Virus record (IMG/VR): IMGVR_UViG_3300032287_002488
Coordinates: 1-26,706 of that record
Length of the DNA stretch: 26,706 nt
Reading direction: 5' to 3' (one strand)
Source of the DNA: a virus
A program made the translations under genes and the position numbers. The notes under the pieces were generated by a model. That model had not been told where the DNA came from. It ran no database searches and was given only the letters and a program-made list of their open reading frames with translations. How positions within the stretch are numbered: the stretch's first letter is position 1; every line of letters starts with the position of its first letter. Below, one piece after another: positions 3,887 through 23,109 of this stretch.

Positions 3887-6445
3887 TTAATTCCATTTAA
3901 TAATAACGATACCAGAACCGCCGGCGCCACCACCACCACCCGAACCTGGTTGTGATGATCCAGCACCACCGCCACCACCTCGATTAATTGGTGCATTATC
4001 ACCTACAGTATTGACTGTTGAAACGCCAGCATTTGCACCACCATACTCAGTTGCACCATAACCAAACGTCAGCGGAAAACCTGCACCACCGCCGCCACCA
4101 GCATATCCTACATTAGCACCAGAAATAGTTGAATAGATTCCTATACCGCCATTACCTCCTGTTGTTGGTGATGCATTCACTCCATTTGCTCCAGCACCAC
4201 CACCACCTCCTCCTGCTTGAATTGAAGGTCCACTTCTAAAACCATTACCACCACCATTACCTTGTGCTGGAGAAATACCAGAAAAATTATTATTACTTGA
4301 CCACCAATTTCCTTGTCCACCAACTGCACCAGTGGGAGTTGCTGGACCATTACCACCACCACCTGATCCTCCAGATGAACCTATGCCAGAAAAAGTTGCT
4401 GCGCCACCACCACCACCGCCAGCAGATGTGACTGTGCTAAAGATTGAATCTGTTCCATTTGATGCTCTTGTAGTACCAGGACTTGTTGTACCAGGTGATC
4501 CTGCACCTCCACTACCAACTGTAATTGTGTATGATTGTCCTGGTGTTACTAAAAATCCTGTGCCCGATCTATAGCCACCCGCACCTCCACCTCCACCAAC
4601 ATCTCCACCACCACCACCACCGCCAGCGACAACAAGATACTCGACCGACGTTACATTATTGGGTACATTCCATGTTGCGGTATCTGTAAATACAGCAATT
4701 TTATTTTGACCCGCAGATATTTTAATAACAGCAAAACCAGAACCGCCTGCTGCGGCAAGAGGTGATGATGCTCCAGCACCGCCGCCACCACCGCCAGAGT
4801 TGACTGTCCCCGGAGTTGCATCAATGGTAGCCGGTGTTCCTGAACCACCGTTACCTCCGCCACCAACACCACCAAAACCAGTTACGACAGGAGTAAAGCA
4901 ACAACCACCACCTCCACCTCCGCCGTATGCTACGTTTGAGCCAGTTATGGTTGAATATATTCCACCACCGCCATTCCCGCCAGTTGTGGCTGTGGCATTT
5001 AGTCCGTTTGATGATGCACCGCCACCGCCACCGCCATTACCATTTGCCGGTGAACTAAAACCTGCGCCGCCGTCCGTTCCCTGTGCGGGTGAAACGTTTG
5101 GTATATTTCCTTGACCCCCCGAATAAGCCTGTGTAGGAGAACCGCCTGCTACAGCACCTCCCCCACCACCAGAACCACCACTAAGTCCTGGTCCATTAGA
5201 TTCACCTCCACCACCACCGCCAGAAGCAGTGATAACTGGATTGTTCGCTGTATTACCACCAGAAAGCACTGTGTTTGTACCATTACCACCAGGCATCGAA
5301 GGAGTTGGTGCGCCGCCGCCAGCGCCGATTGACACTGTATATAATTGTCCTGGTCCGACTGGGAAGCCAACTCCTATTCGAACACCACCGGCGCCACCAC
5401 CGCCACCCGATCTACTGTTACTGATTGAGTCGCCACCACCGCCACCACCACCAACTAAAAAGTAATCAATTGTTGTTGCACCTTGTGGTATTCTCAGTTG
5501 ACCTGTGTTCGCAAAAACATAAATGCCATTACCACCAGGAAGTGTTTCAGTGTAACGAACGATGATGACACCAGAACCACCAGCAGCACCGGCTCTAGCA
5601 TTTCCATCACCACCACCTCCACCACCGGTGTTAGTATTTCCCGAAGTTGCAACACCGCTTGGTCCAATAGGCGCACCTTGACCTCCACCACCGACACCAC
5701 CAAGACCACCTTGGTTGGAAGCATGACCTCCACCACCACCACCGGCGTATGCTACATTAGCACCAGATATGGTTGAAAAAGCACCAGCGCCGCCATCGCC
5801 GCCCGCACTCCCGGATCCATTTTGTCCATTTGCTGTTGCACCACCACCGCCACCACCGCCAGCATTAGCAGGACTAGGGTTAGCAGTTCCGCCACCAAAT
5901 CCTTGTGTGGGTGAAACATTTGGTATATTTCCTAGTCCAACTAGACTGTCACCCGCCGAACCCGCTGAACCGCCACCGCCCGATCCACCACTAGCGGCCG
6001 CAGTTGTTCTAATATCGGAGCCATACCCCCCACCAGCCGACCAAACAGCGGGAAATGGTGATGCGCTATAAATTCCAGAATTTGATCCGTTTGCATTTAT
6101 AGCACCTCCAGCACCAACAACAAAAGTATAAGAAGTACCGGGAACAACACTAAATCCTGTTGATGTGCGATAACCACCAGCACCTCCGCCACCGGATCCT
6201 TGAGTTGCATCTGCACCATCGCCACCACCGCCACCACCTGCCACAATAAGATAGTCCACTTGTGACACACTTGATGGTGCTACCCATGTTGTAGTTTCAG
6301 TAAAAATTCTTAATACAGTATAATTAACTGGAAGTCTGCCTAATAGAGGCACAGACATTCTACTTAAAGACAAAAAGACTTTAATAGAATGTGACGTTAA
6401 TCTCCTCGAGGAAGATGGTTTAATATTAAGTCTACGCTGACTCAT
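3887..6445 (-). CDS. Three-module glycine-rich adhesin-like tail protein (852 aa)
   Basis: An 852-residue paralogue of the 815-aa protein. It has the same three-module plan: A at about residues 46-299, B at 307-573, C at 580-852. Module openings are VDYLIVAGGG, IDYFLVGGGG and VEYLVVAGGG, the closing motifs are SGVIIVRY, SGFAVIKIS and SGIVIIKW, and each module has an STIxGxN segment followed by glycine runs. The head (residues 1-45) is basic and Ser/Leu-rich and lacks the FNGG and GVW blocks seen in the two downstream paralogues, so the attachment end may differ. Cys-Cys occurs at about 515-516 in module B. The ribosome binding site upstream of the ATG at 6445 is weak, ten bases after the previous stop. 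A receptor-binding or fibre-tip role is inferred from glycine-rich phage adhesins. Confidence 0.85.
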   Translation of the reverse strand: MSQRRLNIKPSSSRRLTSHSIKVFLSLSRMSVPLLGRLPVNYTVLRIFTETTTWVAPSSVSQVDYLIVAGGGGGGDGADATQGSGGGGAGGYRTSTGFSVVPGTSYTFVVGAGGAINANGSNSGIYSASPFPAVWSAGGGYGSDIRTTAAASGGSGGGGSAGSAGDSLVGLGNIPNVSPTQGFGGGTANPSPANAGGGGGGGATANGQNGSGSAGGDGGAGAFSTISGANVAYAGGGGGGHASNQGGLGGVGGGGQGAPIGPSGVATSGNTNTGGGGGGDGNARAGAAGGSGVIIVRYTETLPGGNGIYVFANTGQLRIPQGATTIDYFLVGGGGGGGDSISNSRSGGGGGAGGVRIGVGFPVGPGQLYTVSIGAGGGAPTPSMPGGNGTNTVLSGGNTANNPVITASGGGGGGESNGPGLSGGSGGGGGAVAGGSPTQAYSGGQGNIPNVSPAQGTDGGAGFSSPANGNGGGGGGASSNGLNATATTGGNGGGGIYSTITGSNVAYGGGGGGGCCFTPVVTGFGGVGGGGNGGSGTPATIDATPGTVNSGGGGGGAGASSPLAAAGGSGFAVIKISAGQNKIAVFTDTATWNVPNNVTSVEYLVVAGGGGGGGDVGGGGGAGGYRSGTGFLVTPGQSYTITVGSGGAGSPGTTSPGTTRASNGTDSIFSTVTSAGGGGGGAATFSGIGSSGGSGGGGNGPATPTGAVGGQGNWWSSNNNFSGISPAQGNGGGNGFRSGPSIQAGGGGGGAGANGVNASPTTGGNGGIGIYSTISGANVGYAGGGGGAGFPLTFGYGATEYGGANAGVSTVNTVGDNAPINRGGGGGAGSSQPGSGGGGGAGGSGIVIIKWN
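5079..5113 (-). repeat. Near-identical 35-base intragenic repeat, copy in module B
   Basis: This 35-base stretch matches 5901-5935 at 31 of 35 positions by eye, with one mismatch in its central 24 bases. It encodes GNIPNVSPAQG. Most other DNA in modules A and B is far more diverged. Confidence 0.65.
5901..5935 (-). repeat. Near-identical 35-base intragenic repeat, copy in module A
   Basis: Partner of 5079-5113. It encodes GNIPNVSPTQG in module A of the 852-aa adhesin. The copies are about 820 bases apart in direct orientation. Confidence 0.65.
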
Positions 6446-8453: not shown

Positions 8454-8675
8454 TTATGTTCTCGTTACAAGTTGTTGCAGAAGATTTTTTATATCTGTCA
8501 TATCCTGCTCTAGTTTTTGTACTTTATTTTTCATTTCTTCTTGTTCTTCTATTCTTTTTTTAGCCAGCAGACGTTGAGCCTTGTATTTCTCAAGGCCCTC
8601 AACATCTGTATTTAACAACGCTCGATTCGTGATATCACGAACCAATGTTGGATTATCTTTAATTCTGACTAACAT
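8454..8675 (-). CDS. Short coiled-coil virion-region protein (73 aa)
   Basis: A 73-residue protein. Residues 1-25 (MLVRIKDNPTLVRDITNRAL, then NTD) form a short head. Residues 26-70 are a charged helix with hydrophobic heptad positions (YKAQRLLAKK, KVQKLEQDM, IKNLLQQLV) typical of a coiled coil. Small proteins with this head and a coiled-coil tail are recurrent next to the large virion proteins of marine T4-like phages. The function is not known. The ATG overlaps the stop of the upstream DUF4815 gene (TAATG), so translation is probably coupled to that protein. A structural clamp or trimerisation peptide is one possibility. Confidence 0.75.
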   Translation of the reverse strand: MLVRIKDNPTLVRDITNRALLNTDVEGLEKYKAQRLLAKKRIEEQEEMKNKVQKLEQDMTDIKNLLQQLVTRT

Positions 8676-11600
8676 TATAGTGAATCAGGTAAAGCAACAA
8701 CTCTTAGTTCTTTTACTTTAGGAACATCAGTTGGATCAGGTGATGTCATTACAATTTTAATTGCAAAAGTTCCAAATGATGTGTACGTTACATTTCCTGA
8801 AATGTAATTAATGTTATTAACAGCATTGCCATTTGTACCAGGAGCAAATGTCATTTCACGATAATCATCTTGGTTCGTAGATACAAAAGTGCCTCCGTTA
8901 ATTTGTGTCAACAAAGACCAATTTTTCTCATTAAATATTTGTGGATCACCGGATGCAAGATATTTTGCGTATACGTAGATTCTACCTCTTGGTGGTAAAT
9001 AACCCAACAGATATACACGTAAATCGCCAGAATCAAAGCCCGGTGCCAATTGAACACTACGTGTTAAATAACGAACTAACGCATTACCGCCAGATTTTCT
9101 ATCTTCACCATTATAAATTACCGTAGCACCAGAACCGTCTCCAGTAATTGATACTGTTGGTGATGTAGAATAACCAGAACCGGCGGCGGTCAAATTAATA
9201 CCAACAATTTGTCCACCCGAAATATTTGCAGTAGCGACAGCATCAACTCCGTTTCCACCAGAAATAGCAATACTTGCGGTTGTGTAACCAGTACCCGGAT
9301 TTGTTACTACAAAATCTCCTTGTCTCAGTTGAAGATTATTAATAAGATTTTGAACAGCAAGAAGATTTAATCGAGTTCGATCAATCATTGGCGAAATATC
9401 ACGATTTACTGTTGCCATGGTTGTACGCAACGAGAATGTAGTGTTACCTGTTGCCTTGTTTAAGGAACGACGACCACGACCATCATTCATTTCATAGTTA
9501 GAATTTGGATCGAATTCAATATATGGATGACTTGCTCCTACTGTGTTTTCAGCAATAAATTCATATTTCAAACTTGTATTTGCTAGAACAATATCAGTAG
9601 ACATTACGTGCATCAAATCAAATAATACATTTGCAGATTGACGAGACATGTTTACTTCAAAATGAGCATAACCTGGTGTTGTCGTAGAGTATGCGTTTTT
9701 GTTTATCGCAAACATCATGTCAGACGTTTGATCCGCTGTCCAAGTTGAACCGTTTTGTGACAAGAACAATGAACCAACATAAGGTTGCTCGGAAATTTTT
9801 GTAGAAGATGCAATGTTTGTCTGACCAATTTCAGCACAATATGCTTCATAACCAATAGAGTTCGATAACAAGACGACAGAATGTTCACCCGGCAACAAGA
9901 AAACTGGTACTGGGAATCTAAATTCCGTGTATTTTGTCGGATCGGTTATGCTAGGCACTTGTGTTGTTTTAACTTTATCTGGAGTTAAAGTCACATCAGC
10001 AAATGGATAAACTATGTTAGTAGGATAACCATTTTCAACTGTACGTATCTGACATGTAACTGGCGCTTGTGCATCCTTTGTTCTAACACAAACTCGAATG
10101 CTTGACACCATAATACCTTGTGGATATTGAGCGCCTACAAAGAATGTTTGTGCAAGAGGATCACGTGGTGGTTGCGGTGGCGGTGTGGTACTACTGGAAC
10201 TTCTAGTAGTTCTCACCGTTCTTTCTTCAACCAAGTCTCTGGATTCAACTCTAGGAACAAGAGTCGAAACAATCGTTTCTTGTACAGTTTGAATTAAGCC
10301 TTGTGCAAAGAAAGAAACATCACCGTTAGTTGTTGATTTTTCAACTGAACCACTTGGATCGTCATTTATACGCAACTGTTTTTGTCCGGCTCGGAACACA
10401 TCTTGAGGAATTAAAAATACTCCAGCAGTTGCACCCTCAGCCGTTGATTCTAATCTTCCAATACTATAACCAGAAGTTGTATCGGGGACTGTTGTCCAAT
10501 TTGTAGAAACATTTGCAGTTCTTGTAATTGTGTTATAAGCGTTAATTACTGCTGATTGTCCAGCACCAGTTCCATCAATGATTCTAATTGTTTGTCCAAC
10601 ATAATCGGTTGTGTTTGACGCTCCACCCGCATGATAGCCTAATTCAATAGTCGAAACTGTAGCGGATCTTGCTGTGCCACTAAAGTGTTGCCACTCGGAC
10701 AGTAAATTGTTTGTTTCTGGTGTGCCACCAACAGCATAAACACCTCCTGTAGCACTAGACCAAGAACCATAAGTATCTGAAGGAACAAAACTAACAACAA
10801 ATGCATCGTTGTTTGAAGTTAAAACAACAGTTGCTTCACCCATAACTTGATTAGTTAAGTTGTCACGAAACTCAATTACTTCTTGATCACTTGGTGCCGT
10901 ATGGTATGTTAAATTATTATTGGCAAATTTAAGTAAATTTGCACGGAAAATATACTGATCAATTGTTTCGTTATCGAAAAATGAGAACAGAGGCGTTAAG
11001 GGTTTGAAGCCAGTTCCTGTAAATATAACATACAGTTCTCTCATAAACTGAACAATACTGACATCAACAATTTTATCACCCAAAGATGTAGACAATTCTT
11101 CTGGAATAATTTGTTCAAGTATACCTGTTCTTACTTGCTCTTCTGTTCTTGTCGTTCTTCTTCTTCTTGTCGTTGAGCCATCACTATTTGTTCTTCTTCT
11201 ACTTGATGTGCTAACTCCTGTAAAAGTTGTTTCCCAAGAATTCCAAGTTGTAGTGGCGGCAACTGCATTGATTTTATCCCATGCATCACGTGCTTCTTGA
11301 CCGCCAGTCAAATCGACATTCTGTGCTTCGATTCTGTTATCTGATTTCCAAACATCAGAAGGAGGGTCAAGAACAATTCTTCCAAGATAAGTAATGACAC
11401 TAAATGGATTAATATTTACAGACTTAGACGCTAAATTTTGTGTTAAGAAACTCTCTTCAGAACTTTTTAGTGTAAGAAGAGGACCATTAAATTCAATGCC
11501 AGAATCTGAGGGGCTAGCATTGGAGAACACACCTACAGAATAAATGTTAAATGTGTTTCTTGCTAAATTATCCAGTGTATCAATTGATGCTGAAAAATCT

Positions 11601-14600
11601 GTAGCAGTAAAATCAGCAACAGTTTTATCTGAAAACGGATCAACTAGAATTCCGTTTTTAAATCTAGGTAAACCTGTGCTATCAATTATTGACAAATCTT
11701 GCTTATTCAAAGCGCCTTGTTCCATCAGAGATAGAGAAGTGTAATATTCAAGATTTTGGATACGTTTTTCTAACGCACCGATGTCTTTCATTGTATAACG
11801 TTTGTTATCGAAACTTTGAATTCTCGTCATCTCGGAAAAAGCAAGATATGCTGGATATGTTAAAATATACAGAGTCATTGCTTCCGCTGGCTGTTCAGGA
11901 GCCTTTGGCACAGTTGATGGAACACCAATTAATACATCAAAGTTTCCGTTTGTATTTAAAATAACTCGGTCAATACGAGGTAAATAAAAACCATAATTGT
12001 AATTTAAATCTGTTCCAGGTTCTGGAAGTTTAGGACCAGCACCACGCTCTTCAACATCAAACACATAATTGTTTGCTGTAACTGTGTTTGTTGCATCCAA
12101 ACGAACTGGTCGGAAATCAAAATTGTCGGACAAATCAAGAGAAACACCACCTGCTGTAGTATATCCAGGTATGCTACCGTAATCAAAAACACCAGGACCT
12201 TGGCGTGTATATGAATCAACATTAAAGTAACCAGTGCCTGAAGAAATGAAACGATTATAACGTACAAGCAACGGTCCTTTTGGTGCTGGATAACCAGGCT
12301 TCAGAGTAATTGATCCCCAATCATAATAAGAATCTTTTTGGCCTGTTGTTAGTGTATAGAAAGAAGTTATGTTTGAATACGATCCAGCATTATAACTTGT
12401 TGTGTTAATCTGTACGCCATTAAAATCAAAAATTGCATTAATTGAGTGTATATCTGCTGCAAACAATGACTGAGGAATATCAGGTGTTCTTACAAGAATC
12501 GTGTTTGCATTAATAATTGTTTGACCATCTGGCGATGAAACAAAAACTGCACCATTACCAAAAACATTATTTGATGTTGTTACACCAGTGCCATTTGCTG
12601 CAAGTCTTGTATTTGCACGAACAAATGTTTTTGTTTTTGATGTAGGATTAGTAGTAAGAATGGTGCCGTAAATATTTGCAACCATGTTACCACCATCCGT
12701 AACGGAAATGGTACGAGCAACTGGGTCAACAGACATCACGTGTGCAGGCACAATCGAACCCACATCATAATTACTTGTTCCTTTACTTGTGACAATTAAA
12801 GTATAATATTGTTGTTTATCTGCTGTTGCTGTTGCAGTCAACAAAGATTCACCCGTTCCTAAAGAAAGCGGTGAAGATACACCCGCAGCAAACGATACAG
12901 TCTGATATAAACGACGATACGTATAACTGAAAGAAGAGATTGTATTATCTGCAACATTTTCTTCACCTACTCTTATCAAAAGAGGTTCATTACCAGAATC
13001 GGTAATGGAAGTCATGAGATGCTCGATTGGATTGTAAGAAACGGTCCTTGAATATGGATGAATGTTAGCCGAAACTGATCGTGTTGTACCAGCACCAGTC
13101 ATCATTGCTAGAGATTCCACTTGTCCAAAATCAAAGTCGATAACGAACTGTGACGATGTGCCAATTGCTGTGCTATATGGATTGTCTACAGTTACATTTC
13201 TTGTTGCGCCCTCATAAAATTTAATTGTGCGTGGAAATTGGCCTGCGCCAGGACCAGCAACAATTCTAAATTTAGCACCAAGATACGCATCATTGTTAGC
13301 AGAAAATCCTGATGGCAAAGTAAACGTTGTTGTATTACCTAATACAATATTGTATCCATTACTTGTTGTTGTATTAAACAGTGTACGAACATTAATATCG
13401 GATAAAAATGTTTTGTAGATGTAAGTATTACCATCTTGAGCATTCGCAGATTCCTCAAAAGAAATCATTTTAATTTTAGCAGAGCCGACTCTTACGTTAT
13501 CTAAGTTCGCCGTGTTTGCTTGAATGTTTACAAGTGTACCGGCATCAACCGAATACAATTCTACGTTAGCAAATTGATTTGTTGGGAAAGTGCCAAAAAA
13601 ACTGTTAGCAAAAACATAGTATCCAGGATTTGCTGTTATACGACGACCAGTAACTGTTTGTGTAGTTCTTGGTTTAGGTACGGTAATAGTCGTTGATGAA
13701 GTTTTTTCGTTTTCATAACCACGAACGTATGCTTTACCTGGGCCAAGTACAACATTAGTAAATGCTGTATTTGAAGAATCTGCTAAAGCAAGACTAAACG
13801 GCTTTGTTATATAATCACCAGACTCATCAAAAGTACGTCTTGCTAGAGTATCACCTAGTGGTCCGTAAATAGGAACTTCAATTACCCTCTGAGCAATACC
13901 CTCTTTGAACTGACTCAACTCGATAAACTGAGTTAGGTCTGTACTATCTACGCTACGAGTTGTGAGAGTTAAATCTATTTTTAATCTATCTGCACCAGGC
14001 GCTTGAAAATTTGATGCAGATTGTGCTGGATCAAGTAACGATGTATCTTCGGTATAATCGACAATTTCTTCTGTAACTTGAAAGCCTACAATTACATTTG
14101 AATTCCTATTGTATTTTGACAGGGCAACCGACTGTGCCGAATTGCGAACGAAAACACCTTCATAATAAAACACACCATCATTAATAGAAAACGATTGTGA
14201 ATTACCTGTTGGATTTGTAGAAGCGACATTTGCATAATATTGTGTCGCACCAAACTCAGCGTTGGCGGTAACAATTTCTTCGTTGACTCCAAAATCCGAA
14301 CCGTATAATTGACTAATAATAAGTGTAACAGGCTCACCAGATGTAGTATCAGCATTATATGATTTTAACACATATGCTTTTTTTGTTCCTGTTGTATTGG
14401 TAATATACTGTTTATCAAAAGTATTATAATTAATATCAACGCCAGAATATGATGTAGATACATTAAGATAAGAAGTATTTTGAATAAAGATTTGTCCACC
14501 GGAAACAAGTGAACCTGTTTTAAATACGTGATCGCCAAATTTTTTAATTTGGTCTTGTAAAATAGTTTGAGACTGAATTAGTTCACGGGACTGAACAGCA

Positions 14601-14692
14601 AAGCCGGGCTTATATAAAACTCTATAGTAGTTTTTATCTTCGTTAAAATCATCATAATACGGATCAACATTAAAATTTGTAGTTAGTGCCAT
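8675..14692 (-). CDS. DUF4815-type large virion structural protein (2005 aa)
   Basis: A 2005-residue protein. The N-terminus (PYYDDFNEDKNYYRVLYKPG and then QSRELIQSQT, QIKKFGDHVF) is the signature of the DUF4815 family of phage structural proteins, found in marine myophages downstream of the baseplate wedge genes. Basic or low-complexity linkers lie at about 1161-1186 (Arg/Thr-rich) and 1490-1507 (Ser-Thr-Pro). The second is followed by RDPLAQTFFVG, a motif shared by many marine phage virion proteins. Residues about 1793-1860 hold two GxGY beta repeats. The C-terminal 130 residues (from the RSVQLAPGFDSGDLRVY block) look like a compact end domain. The position after gp8 is where T4 has gp9 to gp12, so a peripheral baseplate or fibre-attachment role is likely. 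The start follows an AAAGG site eleven bases upstream, before the ATG at 14692. Confidence 0.85.
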   Translation of the reverse strand: MALTTNFNVDPYYDDFNEDKNYYRVLYKPGFAVQSRELIQSQTILQDQIKKFGDHVFKTGSLVSGGQIFIQNTSYLNVSTSYSGVDINYNTFDKQYITNTTGTKKAYVLKSYNADTTSGEPVTLIISQLYGSDFGVNEEIVTANAEFGATQYYANVASTNPTGNSQSFSINDGVFYYEGVFVRNSAQSVALSKYNRNSNVIVGFQVTEEIVDYTEDTSLLDPAQSASNFQAPGADRLKIDLTLTTRSVDSTDLTQFIELSQFKEGIAQRVIEVPIYGPLGDTLARRTFDESGDYITKPFSLALADSSNTAFTNVVLGPGKAYVRGYENEKTSSTTITVPKPRTTQTVTGRRITANPGYYVFANSFFGTFPTNQFANVELYSVDAGTLVNIQANTANLDNVRVGSAKIKMISFEESANAQDGNTYIYKTFLSDINVRTLFNTTTSNGYNIVLGNTTTFTLPSGFSANNDAYLGAKFRIVAGPGAGQFPRTIKFYEGATRNVTVDNPYSTAIGTSSQFVIDFDFGQVESLAMMTGAGTTRSVSANIHPYSRTVSYNPIEHLMTSITDSGNEPLLIRVGEENVADNTISSFSYTYRRLYQTVSFAAGVSSPLSLGTGESLLTATATADKQQYYTLIVTSKGTSNYDVGSIVPAHVMSVDPVARTISVTDGGNMVANIYGTILTTNPTSKTKTFVRANTRLAANGTGVTTSNNVFGNGAVFVSSPDGQTIINANTILVRTPDIPQSLFAADIHSINAIFDFNGVQINTTSYNAGSYSNITSFYTLTTGQKDSYYDWGSITLKPGYPAPKGPLLVRYNRFISSGTGYFNVDSYTRQGPGVFDYGSIPGYTTAGGVSLDLSDNFDFRPVRLDATNTVTANNYVFDVEERGAGPKLPEPGTDLNYNYGFYLPRIDRVILNTNGNFDVLIGVPSTVPKAPEQPAEAMTLYILTYPAYLAFSEMTRIQSFDNKRYTMKDIGALEKRIQNLEYYTSLSLMEQGALNKQDLSIIDSTGLPRFKNGILVDPFSDKTVADFTATDFSASIDTLDNLARNTFNIYSVGVFSNASPSDSGIEFNGPLLTLKSSEESFLTQNLASKSVNINPFSVITYLGRIVLDPPSDVWKSDNRIEAQNVDLTGGQEARDAWDKINAVAATTTWNSWETTFTGVSTSSRRRTNSDGSTTRRRRTTRTEEQVRTGILEQIIPEELSTSLGDKIVDVSIVQFMRELYVIFTGTGFKPLTPLFSFFDNETIDQYIFRANLLKFANNNLTYHTAPSDQEVIEFRDNLTNQVMGEATVVLTSNNDAFVVSFVPSDTYGSWSSATGGVYAVGGTPETNNLLSEWQHFSGTARSATVSTIELGYHAGGASNTTDYVGQTIRIIDGTGAGQSAVINAYNTITRTANVSTNWTTVPDTTSGYSIGRLESTAEGATAGVFLIPQDVFRAGQKQLRINDDPSGSVEKSTTNGDVSFFAQGLIQTVQETIVSTLVPRVESRDLVEERTVRTTRSSSSTTPPPQPPRDPLAQTFFVGAQYPQGIMVSSIRVCVRTKDAQAPVTCQIRTVENGYPTNIVYPFADVTLTPDKVKTTQVPSITDPTKYTEFRFPVPVFLLPGEHSVVLLSNSIGYEAYCAEIGQTNIASSTKISEQPYVGSLFLSQNGSTWTADQTSDMMFAINKNAYSTTTPGYAHFEVNMSRQSANVLFDLMHVMSTDIVLANTSLKYEFIAENTVGASHPYIEFDPNSNYEMNDGRGRRSLNKATGNTTFSLRTTMATVNRDISPMIDRTRLNLLAVQNLINNLQLRQGDFVVTNPGTGYTTASIAISGGNGVDAVATANISGGQIVGINLTAAGSGYSTSPTVSITGDGSGATVIYNGEDRKSGGNALVRYLTRSVQLAPGFDSGDLRVYLLGYLPPRGRIYVYAKYLASGDPQIFNEKNWSLLTQINGGTFVSTNQDDYREMTFAPGTNGNAVNNINYISGNVTYTSFGTFAIKIVMTSPDPTDVPKVKELRVVALPDSL
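9113..9316 (-). repeat. GxGY beta repeats inside the DUF4815 protein
   Basis: Residues about 1793-1860 read as two units: NPGTGYTTASIAISGGNG and AAGSGYSTSPTVSITGDG, separated by an ANISGGQIVGINL strand. The same unit occurs in the gp6, gp7-like and gp8 proteins. Confidence 0.7.
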
Positions 14693-14702
14693 TTATTAAC
14701 CT

Positions 14703-16298
14703 TTAAAATCTAACAATAAGTTTGATATTTTCAGCCTGTCCCTCTGCTCTTGTGGACTTGATTGCATTTTCGGTGTAAAGAACATCGCCCGAATAGGGAT
14801 CAAATTCTGGATTTTGAATCCCAATAACCAAACGATCTGCAACACCAGAACTTGCGCCACGTAAAGGAACACCCGTTTGGAATTCACCTATCACGTTAGT
14901 AAGTCTTACTTGAGTTGATGTTTGATCTAACACTGCGCCATATGCAATTGTGTTTGCCGCTGTTGTATCGTTTGGTAAACCCTGATAAGCAAATTCGTCA
15001 ATACTATACAAAGAACCCGCAACTAGAGTCAAAACAGTTGCTTGTGAAATGAAAGCATTAGCATTGGAAGCGGATACGACATTAGCACTACCATATTTAT
15101 GAGGGTTTACAAAGATACCATATTGCCTAAACGTTGTATTTGCTGGTATCTTACCATTTTCGGTAGAATCGATTTCACCGATTCTTGAAACCACCATGAC
15201 ACTATTTGCACCAAGTTCCCTAGCAGGATTTTTTGAATGACCATATTTCATGTCACGGATTACACGAACCGCTGAGTTCGAACGTCCTGCCAAAGGCTCA
15301 CTACCAGTTCCATAAACAAACGCATTTGCTCGACTATAACCTGTACCAATTGTTGTGACTGTAACTTTTGTTAGATATCCAGCAGCATTAATTGCGGCCG
15401 CTCCACGTGCGCCTATACCATCACCATCAATATAAACTCTGGTTGTTAGAGCAACTTGATTTGCGTTTCCGCCAGCACCGATTGTTGGTGTTGAGATAAA
15501 GACATTTGAATTTGCAACGTCTTTTCGTAAGATGTATGTTCCAACAGCAATTCCATTTCCAGAAACTGCCATGTTGGCTGAGATATTACTTAGTATCTGA
15601 ACTGTTGGACTTGAAATTGTAAGCACATTTGCTGACGATGAGAAAGCAGTAACGTTAATATTTGATTCATAATAACCAGCGCCAGAATCAGTAACAACGA
15701 TTGTGGTCAATTCTCCGTCAACAACATTAATGTTATTTACACTATAGTCTAATTGATTTGTACTTGTTGGAACTGGGATCCAATCTTCAGAGAGAAACTT
15801 GTTAGACGGTTTAACATTATACATATACTTCCAGATGTATCCATCAGAAGTAGCAATATTACCGTTTGAAGATGTATAATCGCCCGTTGGTTCTACTGTA
15901 GAATTTGCTGATATATTATTTGACAGGCATTTATATACATTTCTCTCAGATGTAAAAACATACATTGGTTTGACGTTTAGAGAATTGTTTCCCGTCAATA
16001 AATCTTCAAGATCAATTAAATCATCATATTGTTTATATTTTGTATTTGATGTCCATCTAATTTTAGGTATGACAAGTTCCACATCATTGCCCGTAATTTT
16101 CTTAGCGGCAATCATATTGTCCCACACTTGTTTTTCATCACTTACAGAATCTACAATTGAATTTGGACTGCTTTCATTTGCATAGGGTAAATGATTACCT
16201 ACGTAAACATAACCAACTTCAGGAGAAGGCTCGTAAAAAGACTCCTTAAATTGGACTGCTGTAAGATATGATATTTTTTTAGACGTAACTGAAGTCAT
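14703..16298 (-). CDS. 8: Baseplate wedge subunit gp8
   Basis: A 531-residue protein in the gp8 family. Recognisable points are the acidic/aromatic block KQVWDNMIAAKKIT (57-70), the VIPKIRW strand (76-82), VYKCLSNN (121-128), the EP...SDGYIWKYMY block (136-160) matching the EPGDGYVWEY region of T4 gp8, and the C-terminal block with FDPYSGDVLYTEN (499-511) then ENIKLIVRF. T4 gp8 is 334 residues. The extra length here sits mostly in residues 195-345, which contain GxGY-type strands (DSGAGYYES near 204-212, TIGTGYSRAN near 316-325). gp8 dimers join gp7 and gp10 in the T4 wedge. Here the gene lies directly after the gp7-like gene and before the DUF4815 gene. The ATG at 16298 follows the previous stop after 12 bases. 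Confidence 0.85.
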   Translation of the reverse strand: MTSVTSKKISYLTAVQFKESFYEPSPEVGYVYVGNHLPYANESSPNSIVDSVSDEKQVWDNMIAAKKITGNDVELVIPKIRWTSNTKYKQYDDLIDLEDLLTGNNSLNVKPMYVFTSERNVYKCLSNNISANSTVEPTGDYTSSNGNIATSDGYIWKYMYNVKPSNKFLSEDWIPVPTSTNQLDYSVNNINVVDGELTTIVVTDSGAGYYESNINVTAFSSSANVLTISSPTVQILSNISANMAVSGNGIAVGTYILRKDVANSNVFISTPTIGAGGNANQVALTTRVYIDGDGIGARGAAAINAAGYLTKVTVTTIGTGYSRANAFVYGTGSEPLAGRSNSAVRVIRDMKYGHSKNPARELGANSVMVVSRIGEIDSTENGKIPANTTFRQYGIFVNPHKYGSANVVSASNANAFISQATVLTLVAGSLYSIDEFAYQGLPNDTTAANTIAYGAVLDQTSTQVRLTNVIGEFQTGVPLRGASSGVADRLVIGIQNPEFDPYSGDVLYTENAIKSTRAEGQAENIKLIVRF

Positions 16299-16310
16299 AG
16301 GTTATATTTA

Positions 16311-19300
16311 TTACTGTTTGTATATAATTGCTGTTTGTGCATTTGCTGTTTGATTCCAGGAAACCGGGTTAATAGTAATTGCTGCTCCGGAACCAGCAGA
16401 ATTTGGAACAGCATTTGGTGTATAATAGTAAATACCAGCGCCTCGAAGCACACTATTGTTATTTATTGTGACTTTTCTGATAGCACCATTACCCGAATAC
16501 ACCTCAACAATAGCATTTGCTGCCGTATTTCTACCTGTAAATCCTACTGTAATGACAGTATTTGTTTGTGAATTAGCCACACCGAATACACTGAATACAG
16601 CATTCGTGTAAGTATTACTATTGGCTGTAATTGCCACTGTAGCAGTTTGTCCGGCGTTCGCCGAAGTTGTCACCGCAAGGTTGGCTATATTTTCTGTATT
16701 CGCAAAGTGACCAATTCTGAATGATGCAGCAATCGTTGGCGATGTACAGAGCGTTCCTGTTGCACCATTCAGAACACCAATAACAATAATGTCAGCACCA
16801 TTCGCATATAGACCAACATTTCGGATTGACGTATTAGAAATTGCTCCACCAGCATTAACTGTGACAATAGCATTTGCCGTGATGTTTGCTGTTCCTTGTG
16901 TTGTTGAGAACACAATAAAACCGTTTGGATAACCTAATCCGGATTGTAATGGGAAAACTTCAGATACCGAAACTGGTGTGACGTTTGGTGAAACATTTGA
17001 TGGTGCAACACGATATAGTCCTGAGTCTACGATTATGATAGAACTCATGTTGATTACACCATTTGATGGGAATACGTTGTACGTTACGATTGCATCTCTT
17101 ACAGCAATACCTCCGCTGAAAACAAAGCGTCCGTTTGACAAACTTCTACCAACAAATGTATTTGCTACAGTATTTGATGTGATTGAAGATATCGATCTTG
17201 GTGATGTATTCAATACTGCCGTTGGTGCAGACAAATAAAGTCCAGGATCAACAATATCAATCTTACGAATTTGACCATCGAGTGATCTCATTGTTACCGT
17301 GAATGAGGCATTTCCTGAGTTTGCTGTAACTATCGGTGTACCAGAATACAAGCCATTTGCCATCATAACTACATTCTGAATAAGACCAACATCATTTACA
17401 TATATTCTAGCATTCGCTGGAATAACAGCAAACGGATCATCGGTAGAAAACTGAATATAACTATTCACGCCATAAGAAAGACCGTTTGCTGTAATCGAAA
17501 CAACTTGAGCCGAATTTGATGGGAAAGTTTCCACACGTACCAACGCAGCACGACTTGGATTACCACCAGAGAATGTAAGAACACTATTTGAATGTCCATT
17601 ACCCGTGCTTGTAACAGTGACAGCAGAGATTACTACGTTAGGATTTGTATTAGGTGTTGCTGTTGGATTTGATTGGTATAGACCCGAATCGATCACTTGA
17701 ACAGTATTGATAACTGTGTTCGGATGAACAATCAGTCTTACGTTTGCATCTCTTAATGGCGTACCACCAGAGAACACTAACCAACCATTCGAATAACCTT
17801 CGCCACGTGCATTTATAGTAATTCCATTTGCATAAACAACTCGATGAGGATTAGTATCTGGTAATGCAATTGGTGTATTTGCATACAAACCACCGGACAC
17901 TAATGTTAATGTACGAACCGCACCGTTCGATGCATGAACTTCAACACTAGCGACCGCAGGAATTGCTTCATCTGTGCCAGAGAATGACACAAATCCATTT
18001 TCATATCCAGAACCTGCATTGGTAATTGTCAAACTAGTTATTTGGCCTCCACCATTAGAGAATACAAGATAACCATTTGAATAGCCAGAACCCGCATTTG
18101 CAATCGTGAGTTGAGTAACGTTTGATGTTGTAATCAGTGAAGTATTACTTACAACTGCATTAATTGTTCTTGATTCTCCATTAACCGCAATTGCCGATCC
18201 TATTGACAAAATACCTTTTGTATTTGCAATATTAAATTTCGTACCAATACCAGAAACTGTGATTCTATTTTTACCAACGTTTACAGTACCCGATATGGTA
18301 TTTGCAAGAATGTCTTGTACCGCAACGTCTGTAAGTTCAACAGTCGTTTGTTTGTTATAGAAAGAATAGTTAATCAAACCTACGGGATGCAATAACTGCT
18401 TCAGCATTGTTTTATATTTGCTGAATTCAACTTTCGAAGAAAGAATATATGAATAATCTACGTAATAGTTTTCGCCTTGTATTTTTCTTTCAAACGACGA
18501 AAGAATAGAATCAGTTGTTAGCCAACGACCTATACCTGAAAGATAAGAACGCTCAACTTCTGCATTTGCTGTTGCGGTGCCATCACCACCAGAAACTGTT
18601 ACAATAGGATTAAATTCATATCCTGAACCAGGATTTACAACTGCAATCGATACGATTTCACCGTTGGCACCAAATCCTGTTGCTTCTAATCTTTCGCCAT
18701 CGCCAACCAACGAATCAATTTGTACACTGGCACTTGAACCTGTTGAGGAAGATACGGTAATAGAAGGCAACTTATCTTGGTCGTAACCATATCCACCTAA
18801 TGGCCAACGATTGTAAACACCAACTTTTTTATCTAAAGCGGAATATGTAAATACTGAAGAAACAACTACAACTGAGTCTAAAGAATTTGAAGTTACTATT
18901 CTCGATTCGCCGTTAATATCTACAGTATCACCCACTTTTAAATCTTGAGTGAAAAACGTTCCTGTTCCTGTAATTTCATTACAGCCGCTATTCACTGAAG
19001 CAGTTCCACGAATACGTGAGTTTGCGGAATCTATGCGTAAAATGTAACCGTTTGCAGCAACTCTACTAACCGTTGCTGCCGCCATTTGACCATAAGTTCC
19101 TGGCGGATTTGGACCAAAAATAATCTCATCACCAACTCTATAGTTTGAGCCACCGTTGTTAATTTTGTATCGACTAACTGATTTTAAACTTTTTGAAAAT
19201 CTGAAAGGCGCAGCAGGACCATATTCTGCACCAGCGGCATCTAAAACTGTACTTGTTCTCTCCGCTAATGTGACAGTTGATGTGAGAACTTTTGTATTTG

Positions 19301-20627
19301 TAATTGGACCTACTTGAATCGTGATGTAATTTAAAGCATCTGAAATTGAATTTGCTGCACTAAGATTTGATTTGCCAAATACTGCGCCCCAATTTGAACT
19401 GTTTACGTAAACTGTTCCACCAACATTTAAACTTAAATTTGAAACTGCATCTGGCGATACAGTAAAAGTATTTGCCGCATTGGCACCACTCGTATCAATT
19501 CCATCAACAACAACGATCATTGTTGTGAAAGCACTGTTACCACTAACAGAAATCGGTGATGAGTTTGTAAATACTGAACCACCATGTCGAACTAAAACAG
19601 AATCAACTTTACCACTTACAACACGTTCAACTGTTCCTAAAGCATTCGATGAAGCATTACCACCAAAAATATAAACAAGATCGCCTACGCTATAGTTATT
19701 ACCTGATTTTGTTACATTAATTTTTCTAATGATGGAGAATGTTGAAGCAACAATATCAATTGATATGTTATTGACTTCATCATTAATCGGTATAATTACA
19801 ACTTCACCGTTTAGAAACGAACCTCTCAACGATTTTTGATTGATAAGAAGTTCTACTGGCAAACCAATATTTAAAGTATCGGAAACAATTCTTCTACTTG
19901 CAAGTTCAATAATTGCACTTGCATTGGATTTGATGCCTGTAACTTTTCGATTGTTTAGTAAAGCAATATCAAAGTTGTCATATGTAACAGTAATAACTGA
20001 GTTATTTGTTGGAGCATTGACAAAGTTCAACTCACGATATTCTTTATTGATAAAGTAATCTACATTAGGAGTTTTAAGAACGCCATCAATAAAAATATCG
20101 GCTTCACCAATACCAACTATTTGAGCCAAATAAAACTTTTTATTTGTACCATTACCGACATAACGACTTGAGATGTCTGGATTAACTCTTAGTTTGTTAT
20201 CTAATTGCCATGTACTTGCCGATGGACGAAGAATGTTATTTTTGGGTAAAATAACTTCTACATCTTCACCAAAAACAAGTTGAAATAAAAGTTTGTAAGA
20301 ACCTTCACCGCCCTTTGAACGATATAGGTTACCTAGATGTTTAAACAGTAATGCTTTATTTGCCTGAACTTCAAGGGGTATTAAAGCAGCAAAAGTATTA
20401 TAGAAACTCTGTTCGAATCGATCTATTGAGTCATCAACATCAGAAATGTTTCTGAGTGTTTTTGCAGTCGTGACTAAGTTATTTGATGTTATTGAAGTAT
20501 TGGCTTGAGTTTCTAAAAACTCATAGTATGCTTCAAGAAAAGTAATAAACTTAGGATACTCGTCACGAACAAATTCGGGCAGTTGTCTGCCAACAAGTAA
20601 CGATGTTTTTAAATCTGCTGCTGACAT
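16311..20627 (-). CDS. gp7-like baseplate wedge protein with long C-terminal repeat array (1438 aa)
   Basis: A 1438-residue protein between gp6 and gp8, the place of gp7 in T4 (1032 residues). Residues 1-145 (VGRQLPEFVRDEYPKFITFL, then KGGEGSYKLLFQLVFGEDVE) match the N-terminal domain of large virion proteins at this position in marine T4-like phages. Residues about 695-757 hold a second conserved block: SGIGRWLTTDSILSSFERKI, NYYVDYSYILSSKV and LLHPVGLINY. Between and around these are GxGY strands (303-325, 664-690) and two copies of an IT(G)xGTxF/INGESR module (541-605 and 779-838). Residues 838-1416 are a repeat array. The assignment as gp7 rests mainly on gene order and N-terminal features, so similarity to T4 gp7 may be weak. 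The ATG overlaps the gp6 stop (TAATG). Confidence 0.75.
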   Translation of the reverse strand: MSAADLKTSLLVGRQLPEFVRDEYPKFITFLEAYYEFLETQANTSITSNNLVTTAKTLRNISDVDDSIDRFEQSFYNTFAALIPLEVQANKALLFKHLGNLYRSKGGEGSYKLLFQLVFGEDVEVILPKNNILRPSASTWQLDNKLRVNPDISSRYVGNGTNKKFYLAQIVGIGEADIFIDGVLKTPNVDYFINKEYRELNFVNAPTNNSVITVTYDNFDIALLNNRKVTGIKSNASAIIELASRRIVSDTLNIGLPVELLINQKSLRGSFLNGEVVIIPINDEVNNISIDIVASTFSIIRKINVTKSGNNYSVGDLVYIFGGNASSNALGTVERVVSGKVDSVLVRHGGSVFTNSSPISVSGNSAFTTMIVVVDGIDTSGANAANTFTVSPDAVSNLSLNVGGTVYVNSSNWGAVFGKSNLSAANSISDALNYITIQVGPITNTKVLTSTVTLAERTSTVLDAAGAEYGPAAPFRFSKSLKSVSRYKINNGGSNYRVGDEIIFGPNPPGTYGQMAAATVSRVAANGYILRIDSANSRIRGTASVNSGCNEITGTGTFFTQDLKVGDTVDINGESRIVTSNSLDSVVVVSSVFTYSALDKKVGVYNRWPLGGYGYDQDKLPSITVSSSTGSSASVQIDSLVGDGERLEATGFGANGEIVSIAVVNPGSGYEFNPIVTVSGGDGTATANAEVERSYLSGIGRWLTTDSILSSFERKIQGENYYVDYSYILSSKVEFSKYKTMLKQLLHPVGLINYSFYNKQTTVELTDVAVQDILANTISGTVNVGKNRITVSGIGTKFNIANTKGILSIGSAIAVNGESRTINAVVSNTSLITTSNVTQLTIANAGSGYSNGYLVFSNGGGQITSLTITNAGSGYENGFVSFSGTDEAIPAVASVEVHASNGAVRTLTLVSGGLYANTPIALPDTNPHRVVYANGITINARGEGYSNGWLVFSGGTPLRDANVRLIVHPNTVINTVQVIDSGLYQSNPTATPNTNPNVVISAVTVTSTGNGHSNSVLTFSGGNPSRAALVRVETFPSNSAQVVSITANGLSYGVNSYIQFSTDDPFAVIPANARIYVNDVGLIQNVVMMANGLYSGTPIVTANSGNASFTVTMRSLDGQIRKIDIVDPGLYLSAPTAVLNTSPRSISSITSNTVANTFVGRSLSNGRFVFSGGIAVRDAIVTYNVFPSNGVINMSSIIIVDSGLYRVAPSNVSPNVTPVSVSEVFPLQSGLGYPNGFIVFSTTQGTANITANAIVTVNAGGAISNTSIRNVGLYANGADIIVIGVLNGATGTLCTSPTIAASFRIGHFANTENIANLAVTTSANAGQTATVAITANSNTYTNAVFSVFGVANSQTNTVITVGFTGRNTAANAIVEVYSGNGAIRKVTINNNSVLRGAGIYYYTPNAVPNSAGSGAAITINPVSWNQTANAQTAIIYKQ
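16380..18116 (-). repeat. Array of about 55-90-residue repeats in the gp7-like protein
   Basis: Residues 838-1416 carry about eight degenerate units. The unit runs GxGYxNGxLVFSGG, then RDAxVxxxVxPSNG, then a strand ending SGLYxxxPTAxPNTxP. Clear units begin near residues 873, 942, 1009, 1160 and 1230. Others are worn or lack one half. Confidence 0.75.
18114..18293 (-). repeat. GTxF/INGESR module, second copy
   Basis: Residues 779-838: SGTVNVGKNRITVSGIGT, then LSIGSAIAVNGESR and a strand ending LITTSN. It is homologous to residues 541-605 of the same protein. Confidence 0.6.
18813..19007 (-). repeat. GTxF/INGESR module, first copy
   Basis: Residues 541-605: GTASVNSGCNEITGTGTFF, then LKVGDTVDINGESRIVTS and a VVVVSSVFTYS strand. 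It is the partner of 18114-18293. The two copies flank the conserved core block at about residues 695-757. Confidence 0.6.
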
Positions 20628-22684
20628 TATACAGTTTCTAGTGTTGTACTAATTGATGTCGGATCATCTTCATCAATTGTAATAATTGTATTTTTAGTTG
20701 AATTTATGATGTCACTTTCAGACTCAATTGATAGTCGAATGTCACCATCAACAGATTGAACATCTTTGATTAAAATGTCCGAGATTGTAATTGTGCCTGT
20801 GTCATAATTAATTTCACCCGCATTTACATCAACAACCTGTCTCTGTGCAAAAGAATCATAGTAGATTGTTCTAATTGTGCCAACACGACCATCAATGATA
20901 GGAACGGCGCTGGCACCATATCCACCACCACCAGAAATCGTTATCGTTGCACGTGTATAATCGATTCCTCGATTTAAAATTTCAATGCTTCTTATTTGAC
21001 CATTTACGATTGTAGCCGCAGCATTTGCTCCAGTGCCATCGCCGTCAATTGTAATTAATGGTGAAGATGTAAACCCTGTGCCAGGATTTGTTATACTGAT
21101 TGCGGAGATACCAGAGAAAGATTGTGGTATTTCGTCAAACTGAACTTCACGATCAACACCCTGCGAATCTGTTACCGTAAATGCTGTAGACACTAATTTA
21201 TTACCAATTGTTCCTCTACGAAGTGGCACACTAAAATTAATAGTGTATGGAGTAGACTGATTTAAATTTGGTGTAAATCTTTTTTGCACACGAACAGAAA
21301 TACTTGAACCAACAATGGCGTTTGTGTCCACATTGTCAATAGTTTCCTGAACTTTTGATAGGATGAATTGGGAACTAAATTTATTCAGATTGGTTGTTTT
21401 ATAGTTCAAAATTGAATTGCGTATTGCAGTTTTTAATTGTTCTGGTGTAATTGCAACTTTGTTAGCACCATAAACAACTTTAGAAGAAACCAACAAATAC
21501 AAAAAGTCTGGATCACGAACTACAGTTTGTATTGCAACAATCGCCTTTGGCTTAACAATCTCATCGATAATTTTTTGTTTTTCGAGATCGGAAAGATAGT
21601 AGTTTGTTTTAGGTTTTAGTGCAATGTAAACAATACCAAACTTTGGCGGTGTCTCATCTTCACCACCCCAAACGGACACAGAATCAATTGATGGATAACT
21701 TTTTTGAATGTAAGATGAGTAGTCTGAAAAAGTAACCAAACGATTTTGATTTGTATATTGAAGAGGTGCAGAAAACTTTATACTGTCAACAGATTCTCTC
21801 TCTGTGCCACCAGATGCCTGAGAAACAGGAGTAATTACAAAATTTGTATGTATTTGATTTAAAGAATCGGTTAAAAAGTCAGTGGCAACAAAATTGTTTG
21901 CTTTGTTTGCAACATCACCATTTGTTGTCAAGTATTGAATATTGACGATTGAACCGTCTGGTATTTTTTTACCAATAACATTATCGCCAAAATAAATTGT
22001 GTACTTTTCGGCTTTGTTTTCTTGTAAATAAAATACCTGAGCCTGCGTGGATGTATTCGAAGCATCCGAAGCCAAGGTGTAAACAAAAGTATCCGTATTA
22101 GATTCTGATGGTTGAACAGTCACAAAAAGAGATGATGTATCTACCTGTGGATCTGGTAAAGTAAAAACTTGGCTTGGATTTGTAGAGTCATCTTGCACAT
22201 AAGAATAAGATACAAGTTGACCTTCATAGATTTGTAAATTTTTAAATGAAAAATCTGTATTAGATTTAGTTACGGTTGTCTCTGTAAGAGTCACAAAGTT
22301 ATAACTTGCACCATCAATCTCATTTGATAAAAATCTAAAGCCTCTAGGCACTGTTACAGTTGCAACATCTGTTGTGTTGGTTCTAACAGTAAAGTCAACA
22401 ATCGCTTGAGGCGCTCTGCGTGAATATGGAATATAACCTAAAGTTTTTGCATGAGAAACAACCGAATCACGTAACAAAGCGGTATCCATAAACGCTTCAT
22501 TGGCAACCATGTTCAGATAATATGCTTGATAGTGTGTGTTGTATGCCAGTATGTCAAGCAAAACACTAAGACCAGAACCTTCAAAATCATAATCAGTAAA
22601 CTCTGATTGTTGATTTAAAAATGTTCTTAAATTTTGTTTTATCGTATCAAAATCAAGTTCTGTTACTCGTAAACGGTCTGCCAT
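20627..22684 (-). CDS. 6: Baseplate wedge subunit gp6
   Basis: A 685-residue gp6/Baseplate_J family protein. The N-terminus has LDFDTIKQNLRTFLNQQ, then YDFEGSGLSVLLDILAYNTH (33-52) and YYLNMVANEAFMDTAL (55-70), a hallmark of T4 gp6 relatives. The sequence YTIYFGDNVIGKKIPDG at 228-244 is the typical Baseplate_J strand. Residues 313-470 hold the core QNRLVTFSDYSSYIQKSYP and IDEIVKPKAI. T4 gp6 is 660 residues. Residues 525-603 (coding 20876-21112) carry GxGF/GxDY beta repeats (NPGTGFTSSPLITIDGDG) that look like an insertion. gp6 forms the dimeric inner ring of each wedge and works with gp25 and gp53, whose genes are nearby. The ATG at 22684 is two bases after the gp25 stop. Confidence 0.9.
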   Translation of the reverse strand: MADRLRVTELDFDTIKQNLRTFLNQQSEFTDYDFEGSGLSVLLDILAYNTHYQAYYLNMVANEAFMDTALLRDSVVSHAKTLGYIPYSRRAPQAIVDFTVRTNTTDVATVTVPRGFRFLSNEIDGASYNFVTLTETTVTKSNTDFSFKNLQIYEGQLVSYSYVQDDSTNPSQVFTLPDPQVDTSSLFVTVQPSESNTDTFVYTLASDASNTSTQAQVFYLQENKAEKYTIYFGDNVIGKKIPDGSIVNIQYLTTNGDVANKANNFVATDFLTDSLNQIHTNFVITPVSQASGGTERESVDSIKFSAPLQYTNQNRLVTFSDYSSYIQKSYPSIDSVSVWGGEDETPPKFGIVYIALKPKTNYYLSDLEKQKIIDEIVKPKAIVAIQTVVRDPDFLYLLVSSKVVYGANKVAITPEQLKTAIRNSILNYKTTNLNKFSSQFILSKVQETIDNVDTNAIVGSSISVRVQKRFTPNLNQSTPYTINFSVPLRRGTIGNKLVSTAFTVTDSQGVDREVQFDEIPQSFSGISAISITNPGTGFTSSPLITIDGDGTGANAAATIVNGQIRSIEILNRGIDYTRATITISGGGGYGASAVPIIDGRVGTIRTIYYDSFAQRQVVDVNAGEINYDTGTITISDILIKDVQSVDGDIRLSIESESDIINSTKNTIITIDEDDPTSISTTLETV

Positions 22685-22686
22685 TT

Positions 22687-23109
22687 TTATCTAATTCTCT
22701 CTAAGAAAAAATCAATAGTAATTGGATTTGGATTATTAACTATGAAAAATGTCATTGACACATTGTAACGATTTTCATCTGGATACGCTGTGACTAAGAT
22801 ATTTACTATTTCAACTCTTGGTTCATAGTTTATTATTGTCTCTTCAATTGCTCTTTCCAATTGACTGGAAATAATTGGATCTACATTTTCAAATAACAAA
22901 TCTCTTAAACCACTACCGATCTGTGGTCTGAATGGACGTTCAAAATAGTTAGTAGATACTAAGTTTTTTACTGAATTTATTACAGCAAATTCATTGATGT
23001 GTTTAGACACATCTTTCTTTACAGGGTGTTTAGTAAAATTTAAATCCAAGTCACGATAAGTTCTTTCCGTCGATATTCTTGGATTTTGAGATATTATTGT
23101 CGTTGCCAT
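22687..23109 (-). CDS. 25: Baseplate wedge/sheath initiator gp25
   Basis: A 140-residue gp25-like protein, close to the 132 residues of T4 gp25. The family pattern is visible: YRDLDLNFTKHP near residues 18-29, then a helix INEFAVINSVKNLVSTN, ERPFRPQIGSGLRDLLFEN (57-75) and an alternating C-terminal strand region RVEIVNILVTAYP. gp25 shares its fold with the sheath handshake domain and starts sheath polymerisation on the gp6 ring. The gene precedes gp6, consistent with coordinated production. No strong ribosome binding site is seen, the upstream sequence being AATAAATAAAAG. Confidence 0.9.
   Translation of the reverse strand: MATTIISQNPRISTERTYRDLDLNFTKHPVKKDVSKHINEFAVINSVKNLVSTNYFERPFRPQIGSGLRDLLFENVDPIISSQLERAIEETIINYEPRVEIVNILVTAYPDENRYNVSMTFFIVNNPNPITIDFFLERIR

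Follow-up and report, generated by a model that had tools for sequence, protein, structure and literature searches.

A small beta-rich module made of two GxGY units is carried by four consecutive genes in the tail operon of an uncultured T4-like phage, and related copies are found in virion proteins well outside the baseplate. The module is probably a mobile, uncatalogued accessory domain that works in the manner of the phage Ig-like domains. The window analyzed here, meaning the whole stretch of 26,706 bases from virus record IMGVR_UViG_3300032287_002488, holds a T4-like tail operon with all genes on the minus strand. The gp25 gene (22687-23109) is followed by genes for a gp6-like baseplate wedge protein with one two-unit module (20627..22684, 685 aa), a gp7-like wedge protein (16311..20627, 1438 aa; PF23786 2.9e-8, phrog_17744 2.8e-42), a gp8-like baseplate wedge protein (14703..16298, 531 aa; PF09215 3.5e-6, phrog_438 3.7e-79) and a DUF4815/VrlC-like virion protein (8675..14692, 2005 aa; PF16075 2.4e-61, phrog_358). 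Kyanoviridae isolates, HTVC008M and S-SRM01 among them, share this gene order, as does Melnitz, where extra genes are interspersed.

Four consecutive genes share the GxGY unit

The unit is about 36 aa long, follows the pattern GxIxxIxVTNxGxGYTxxPxVxIxGGGxGAxAxAxI, and was found in gp6, the gp7-like protein, gp8 and the DUF4815 protein; the computed 36-residue consensus is GxIssIxVTNxGxGYtxapxviigGgGxGAtAxAvI. Two units in tandem form a module of about 76 aa in gp6 and DUF4815. A 36-aa HMM, whose training set included window sequences, scored the main window units at 22-44 bits, compared to best scores of 9.0 bits for shuffled and 5.5 bits for reversed proteins. As an independent test, an HMM was built from gp6 modules of other phages only, with the window excluded and 20 shuffled sets as control. 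Membership in the two-unit module, as defined here, means a significant score against a profile from which the tested protein was left out. The gp6-only HMM gave such scores for DUF4815 (3e-10), the gp7-like protein (1.3e-7) and gp8 (4.5e-5), compared to 5e-3 for the best shuffled set. The gp8 copy is the weakest link in this leave-out test and leans on the compact modules that isolates have in gp8. No significant unit was seen in the window's gp25, gp5-OB protein or remaining ORFs, and complete T4 gave no module match.

AlphaFold strand order supports two tandem units of three strands each in both gp6 and gp8, so that, as far as strand order goes, the differing folds which would have spoken against a common repeat were not seen in these two proteins. 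A chance match between Gly-rich sequences was rejected by the shuffled and reversed controls together with the leave-out HMM. By these comparisons the four genes carry homologous copies of one domain family. The preliminary description, which had read the same repeat in four consecutive baseplate genes, was borne out, with the units lying where it had placed them.

The gp6 insertion

The gp6 carrier matches PF21379 (9.4e-23), PF21871 (4.3e-8), phrog_219 (5e-163) and, in the PDB, T4 gp6 (5.8e-50). Its model (mean pLDDT 80.7) superposes over residues 317-685 on 3h2t_A with a VIA Z of 23.0 and an rmsd of 3.3 over 271 residues. The protein has the helical, II and C-terminal domains of a T4-like gp6; the Pfam models of domain II and C-I score under their cut-offs. 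The module spans aa 525-603 (20876..21112, minus strand) with HMM scores of 39 and 41 bits and a pLDDT of about 80-92. By the 36-aa HMM, its units are aa 525-559 (21008-21112) and aa 562-598 (20891-21001), and the predicted strands are 525-533, 543-548 and 554-560 in the first and 563-571, 579-584 and 592-598 in the second.

When gp6 is aligned to its counterparts in Melnitz, HTVC008M, BUCT-ZZ01 and S-SRM01, the flanks match on either side and the module corresponds to a gap; the gp6 of module-less Kyanoviridae isolates is 608-653 aa long. It appears to have arisen as an insertion and not by whole-gene duplication. T4 gp6 (660 aa) is also without the module. The earlier suggestion that the repeats fall where gp6 and gp8 exceed their T4 counterparts holds for gp8, where T4 has a gap, but is loose for gp6, where T4 has unrelated residues of its own at the site and is only 25 aa shorter than the window protein.

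A tree of the gp6 core (76 sequences) places module presence as one change, with branch support of 100/100. The root decides whether the module was gained or lost at this change; gain is favoured because no isolate in the tree has the module, and neither does T4. Of 2412 phage records that match gp6, not one reaches 80% coverage of the window gp6, and therefore no isolate with the window-type gp6 insert was found among them. The module is kept across the whole clade that carries it. Amino acid identity is 0.655 in the module compared to 0.588 and 0.569 in the rest of gp6. The corresponding median dN/dS values are 0.25 versus 0.32 and 0.29, to be read as a comparison and not as absolute rates because synonymous changes are partly saturated between distant sequences. 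Purifying selection on the module is somewhat stronger than on the rest of gp6.

Modules in gp8, DUF4815 and the gp7-like protein

The gp8 carrier belongs to the Phage-Gp8 family (PF09215, 26.8 bits against a cut-off of 25). Repeats had been described at 15264-15716 and are present, with the correction that they form a single module (aa 195-348; 15255..15716, minus strand) whose first unit is interrupted by a nested beta-barrel. The 36-aa HMM places the units at aa 195-204, 285-303 and 307-348, scoring 21.9 and 22.1 bits. The predicted strands (197-204, 287-292, 298-303 and 309-316, 324-329, 343-348) follow the order seen in gp6; the gp8 model has a mean pLDDT of 51.5, being good at 200-340 and of low confidence outside aa 190-350. 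The barrel, recognized by fold match (aa 211-288, about 75 aa; 15435..15668, minus strand), sits between strands 1 and 2 of the module. It matches domains of phage tailspikes and of the Mystique tail tube with VIA Z 8.7-9.2 and rmsd 1.8-3.1 over 66-77 residues. In S-CRM01 and HTVC008M, gp8 has a compact module without the barrel, and T4 gp8 has neither.

The DUF4815 module (aa 1793-1860; 9113..9316, minus strand) scores 25.4 and 26.9 bits, with units by the 36-aa HMM at aa 1795-1824 (9221-9310) and aa 1827-1858 (9119-9214). It lies at a similar position in eight relatives.

The gp7-like protein carries several units, with an array in its C-terminal 600 aa. The strongest is aa 656-691 (18555..18662, 44.0 bits). 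Pairs lie at aa 837-861 and 861-897 (17937..18119; 24.5 and 40.5 bits) and at aa 936-963 and 1000-1032 (17532..17822; 22.6 and 23.6 bits), and a further unit at aa 300-329 (19641..19730, 23.0 bits), all on the minus strand. Repeats had been reported near residues 664-690 and throughout the C-terminus; units are indeed present, but several are weak, such as aa 489-507 (11.6 bits) and aa 1230-1255 (7.9 bits). Leaving aside three short ORFs (284-360 aa), relatives of this protein are of two kinds: the shorter, at about 770-930 aa, hold 2-4 units, and the longer, at 1343-1531 aa, hold 6-8. The window protein is of the long kind.

Spread beyond the baseplate

Each of 30 modules matched several PHROG families, which represent different parts of the virion. 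PHROG 438, 460, 701, 708, 1922, 2885, 5342 and 19630 are whole-protein families, none of which models the module itself; they cross-match because their profiles contain it. Among related cyanophages, S-SRM01 has the module in the hub lysozyme and the neck protein Hc2. In Syn1 it is present in gp5, the gp7-like protein, gp8, a DUF4815-type protein and a 3381-aa fibre. Restriction of the module to the baseplate was rejected on these neck, hub and fibre copies.

Among unrelated phages, the module occurs in the ep3 tail sheath (gp6-only HMM, 4e-21) and the lambda-type tail tube of the siphophage PseuP_224 (1e-18). The PseuP_224 tube carries it at a site where SC_8_H2H8_2017, with flanks 79% identical, has none; the sheaths of ep3 and Persinger have it, whereas that of ZRG1, 68% identical, does not. 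The Pfam tail-tube profile, of 154 positions, extends over a 243-aa Pseudomonas tube. Such related pairs with and without the module make its function directly testable.

The extent of the module was earlier given as the whole baseplate rim, which is too narrow in view of the neck, hub, fibre, sheath and tube copies. A rim location is also not supported by the T4 baseplate. In T4, gp6 forms a continuous ring around the hub, its C-terminal domain building the inner ring, gp8 sits a little further in, and gp12 makes up the outermost rim (PMC3004832).

Searching 84,980 prokaryote genomes yielded 127 confirmed loci, 80 of them kept, in Bacteroidota, Planctomycetota, Verrucomicrobiota, Chloroflexota, Pseudomonadota and others; the query was one natural module, so matches are biased towards its motif. 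The carriers include prophage sheaths and tubes, lipoproteins of the SusD family (starch-binding type), and large proteins that look secreted and hold as many as 32 units. The plasmid collection gave no module match.

Relation to known domains

The module appears to be uncatalogued, as no Pfam, NCBIfam or PDB entry was found to cover it. No Pfam or NCBIfam family models it, and PDB sequence searches, whether by profile or by individual module, returned nothing credible (the BURRH and spore-coat matches are at chance level). Fold searches with whole gp6 and gp8 models returned matches to the carriers or to the nested gp8 barrel, none of which isolates the module, so its fold may yet be a known one, the Ig fold included. 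Peptide strings of the module were not found in the open-access papers searched, and no paper describing the repeat was found.

Ig-like folds make up most of the accessory domains so far known on phage virions. Like those of the lambda gpV C-terminus and T5 pb6 (PMC8718954), the GxGY module is a small beta-domain on unrelated virion proteins, including tail tubes. Both are inserted patchily among relatives, and a weak surface-binding or accessory role has been proposed for each. Unlike Ig-like domains, the GxGY module is built of two GxGY units, each of three strands, and sits in internal loops, including one in the gp6 ring protein. None of the 30 modules matched a Pfam Ig-superfamily entry above its curated cut-off; the best Ig-like entry, Big_3_3, matched 2 of 30 at an E-value of 0.035. 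At the sequence level, membership in the Ig family is unsupported.

The ep3 sheath (475 aa) is listed as a two-domain sheath in PMC9230969, and the GxGY module is evidently its extra segment. That text treats the additional domains of type 2 sheaths as mostly Ig-like beta-sandwiches and, within the part available, does not identify the GxGY family or its wider spread. It places the extra domains away from the tube and proposes that they aid adsorption or stability.

Possible roles of the module

The reading we favour as probable, an accessory module analogous to the Ig-like domains, would work as follows. Two units of about 36 residues would fold together, probably on their own, and unrelated virion proteins would have taken up the module in frame, at their loops. 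In the present phage, gp6, gp8 and DUF4815 carry it, and it is multiplied in the gp7-like protein. T4 copy numbers suggest dozens of copies per virion. The assembly function of each carrier would be left intact, and the module, presumably exposed, would most likely add a weak multivalent contact surface, whose partner may be host-surface glycans or neighbouring virion subunits. Since close relatives are without it, the module is not needed for assembly in general. Binding of glycans or the cell surface has, in our judgment, a little less than an even chance, the glycan role being suggested by carrier type alone. The module is conserved and not hypervariable, unlike a typical receptor-binding surface, and this counts against the adhesion form of the favoured reading.

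A rather unlikely alternative is that the inserts make no contact with the host and instead bind adjacent virion subunits, stabilising wedge-wedge, sheath and tube contacts. The greater conservation of the module compared to its gp6 carrier is consistent with such cementing, and tail stabilisation is among the proposals for extra sheath domains in PMC9230969. In gp6 itself adhesion is no more likely than cementing because the carrier domain in T4 forms the inter-wedge ring, its C-terminal domains giving the inter-wedge contacts (PMC3004832). However, close relatives assemble their tubes and sheaths without the module, and bacteria carry it as well, in SusD and other surface proteins with no part in tail building.

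The beta-rich sequence with its Gly repeats, and the variable number of units in the gp7-like protein, could also be expected of a passive spacer that is merely tolerated, or of a shared sequence that aids recombination. This is improbable. The module's dN/dS is below that of its carrier and the module is kept clade-wide, which argues against a spacer; against a recombination tract, no long DNA identity is left between copies through which to recombine.

Returning to the accessory module, a broader form of this reading is offered only tentatively. The GxGY module may be a general-purpose contact domain common to phage virions and to bacterial surface proteins of many phyla, built repeatedly into nearly every tail part, including the gp6 ring. 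It would then join the Ig-like fold as a second accessory domain of pan-phage range, distinct in both fold and class of ligand. Among its phage carriers are proteins of the tube, sheath, wedge, ring, hub and neck, and bacterial surface proteins share it.

Origin and age of the copies

Independent origin of Gly-rich beta repeats in each protein is very improbable. The sequences are biased in composition towards Gly, Ala, Thr and Val, short repeats converge easily, and the tree of 95 modules over 76 columns is mostly unresolved. However, the leave-out E-values are lower than those of shuffled controls, gp6 and DUF4815 share the same two-unit architecture, and gp6 and gp8 share the same predicted strand order. 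Donors cannot be named from the module tree because of its low resolution.

Between gp6 and DUF4815, unit identity is 41.4% for copies from one genome and 41.5% for copies from different genomes. The values are 30.4% and 30.6% for gp6 and gp7-like units, and 31.4% and 32.0% for gp6 and gp8 units; orthologous units are 55-66% identical. The copies are old, because those in the same genome are no closer than those in different genomes. The preliminary description had called the domain dispersing; as a process ongoing in this phage, this is not supported, given the equal identities and the lack of any long DNA match between modules. Recent copying from one baseplate gene to its neighbours in this lineage would fit the run of four consecutive genes but was rejected on the same two comparisons, and it is the least probable of the alternatives. 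The gp6 profile also scores the ep3 sheath and PseuP_224 tube modules above the neighbouring genes.

The gp7-like gene of HTVC008M is annotated as 'head closure Hc2', and the Hc2 family profile includes the GxGY module. In cases such as this one, the module seems to mislead annotation.

A beta-barrel nested in the gp8 module

Window positions 15435-15668 (gp8 residues 211-288) encode a separate beta-barrel. It interrupts the first of the units that make up the GxGY module of gp8, so that one domain sits within another. The barrel, which is missing in T4 gp8 and in gp8 of the isolates compared, displays likeness to domains found in phage tailspikes and in the Mystique tail tube.

Two long window proteins (220-2667 and 3887-6445) each carry three glycine-rich stretches of the PF21722 (Gly_rich_2) family. 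DNA repeats inside their genes are spaced 768-819 nt apart in the former and about 822 nt apart in the latter.

GxGY units in other phage and bacterial proteins

In some relatives (L079 1782-4046; L080 7019-9568; L077 526-3078), a protein of 755-851 aa encoded upstream of gp6 bears one GxGY unit; it has no match among the window proteins. Four units, arranged as two tandem pairs, were observed in a 662-aa protein of MW202825 (L085 12635-14623), a 34-kb phage from Manatee Spring.

HTVC008M gp055 (L082 15846-18896) occupies the gp7-like position and is labelled 'head closure Hc2'. The likely reason for this label is that the PHROG profile of Hc2 includes the shared GxGY module. Another protein of this phage, gp016 (L254 1-558), is labelled curlin-associated and weakly matches the gp6 module (E 0.0015).

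Two GxGY units were also seen in SusD-like lipoproteins of Bacteroidota (loci L095, L104, L111 and L145, as well as L099, L115, L119 and L151), at about residues 430-520 in the four with listed positions. An unexpected type of carrier was a DUF2589 protein with two units, encoded in a metagenome-derived Flavobacteriaceae genome (L117 3776-4618).
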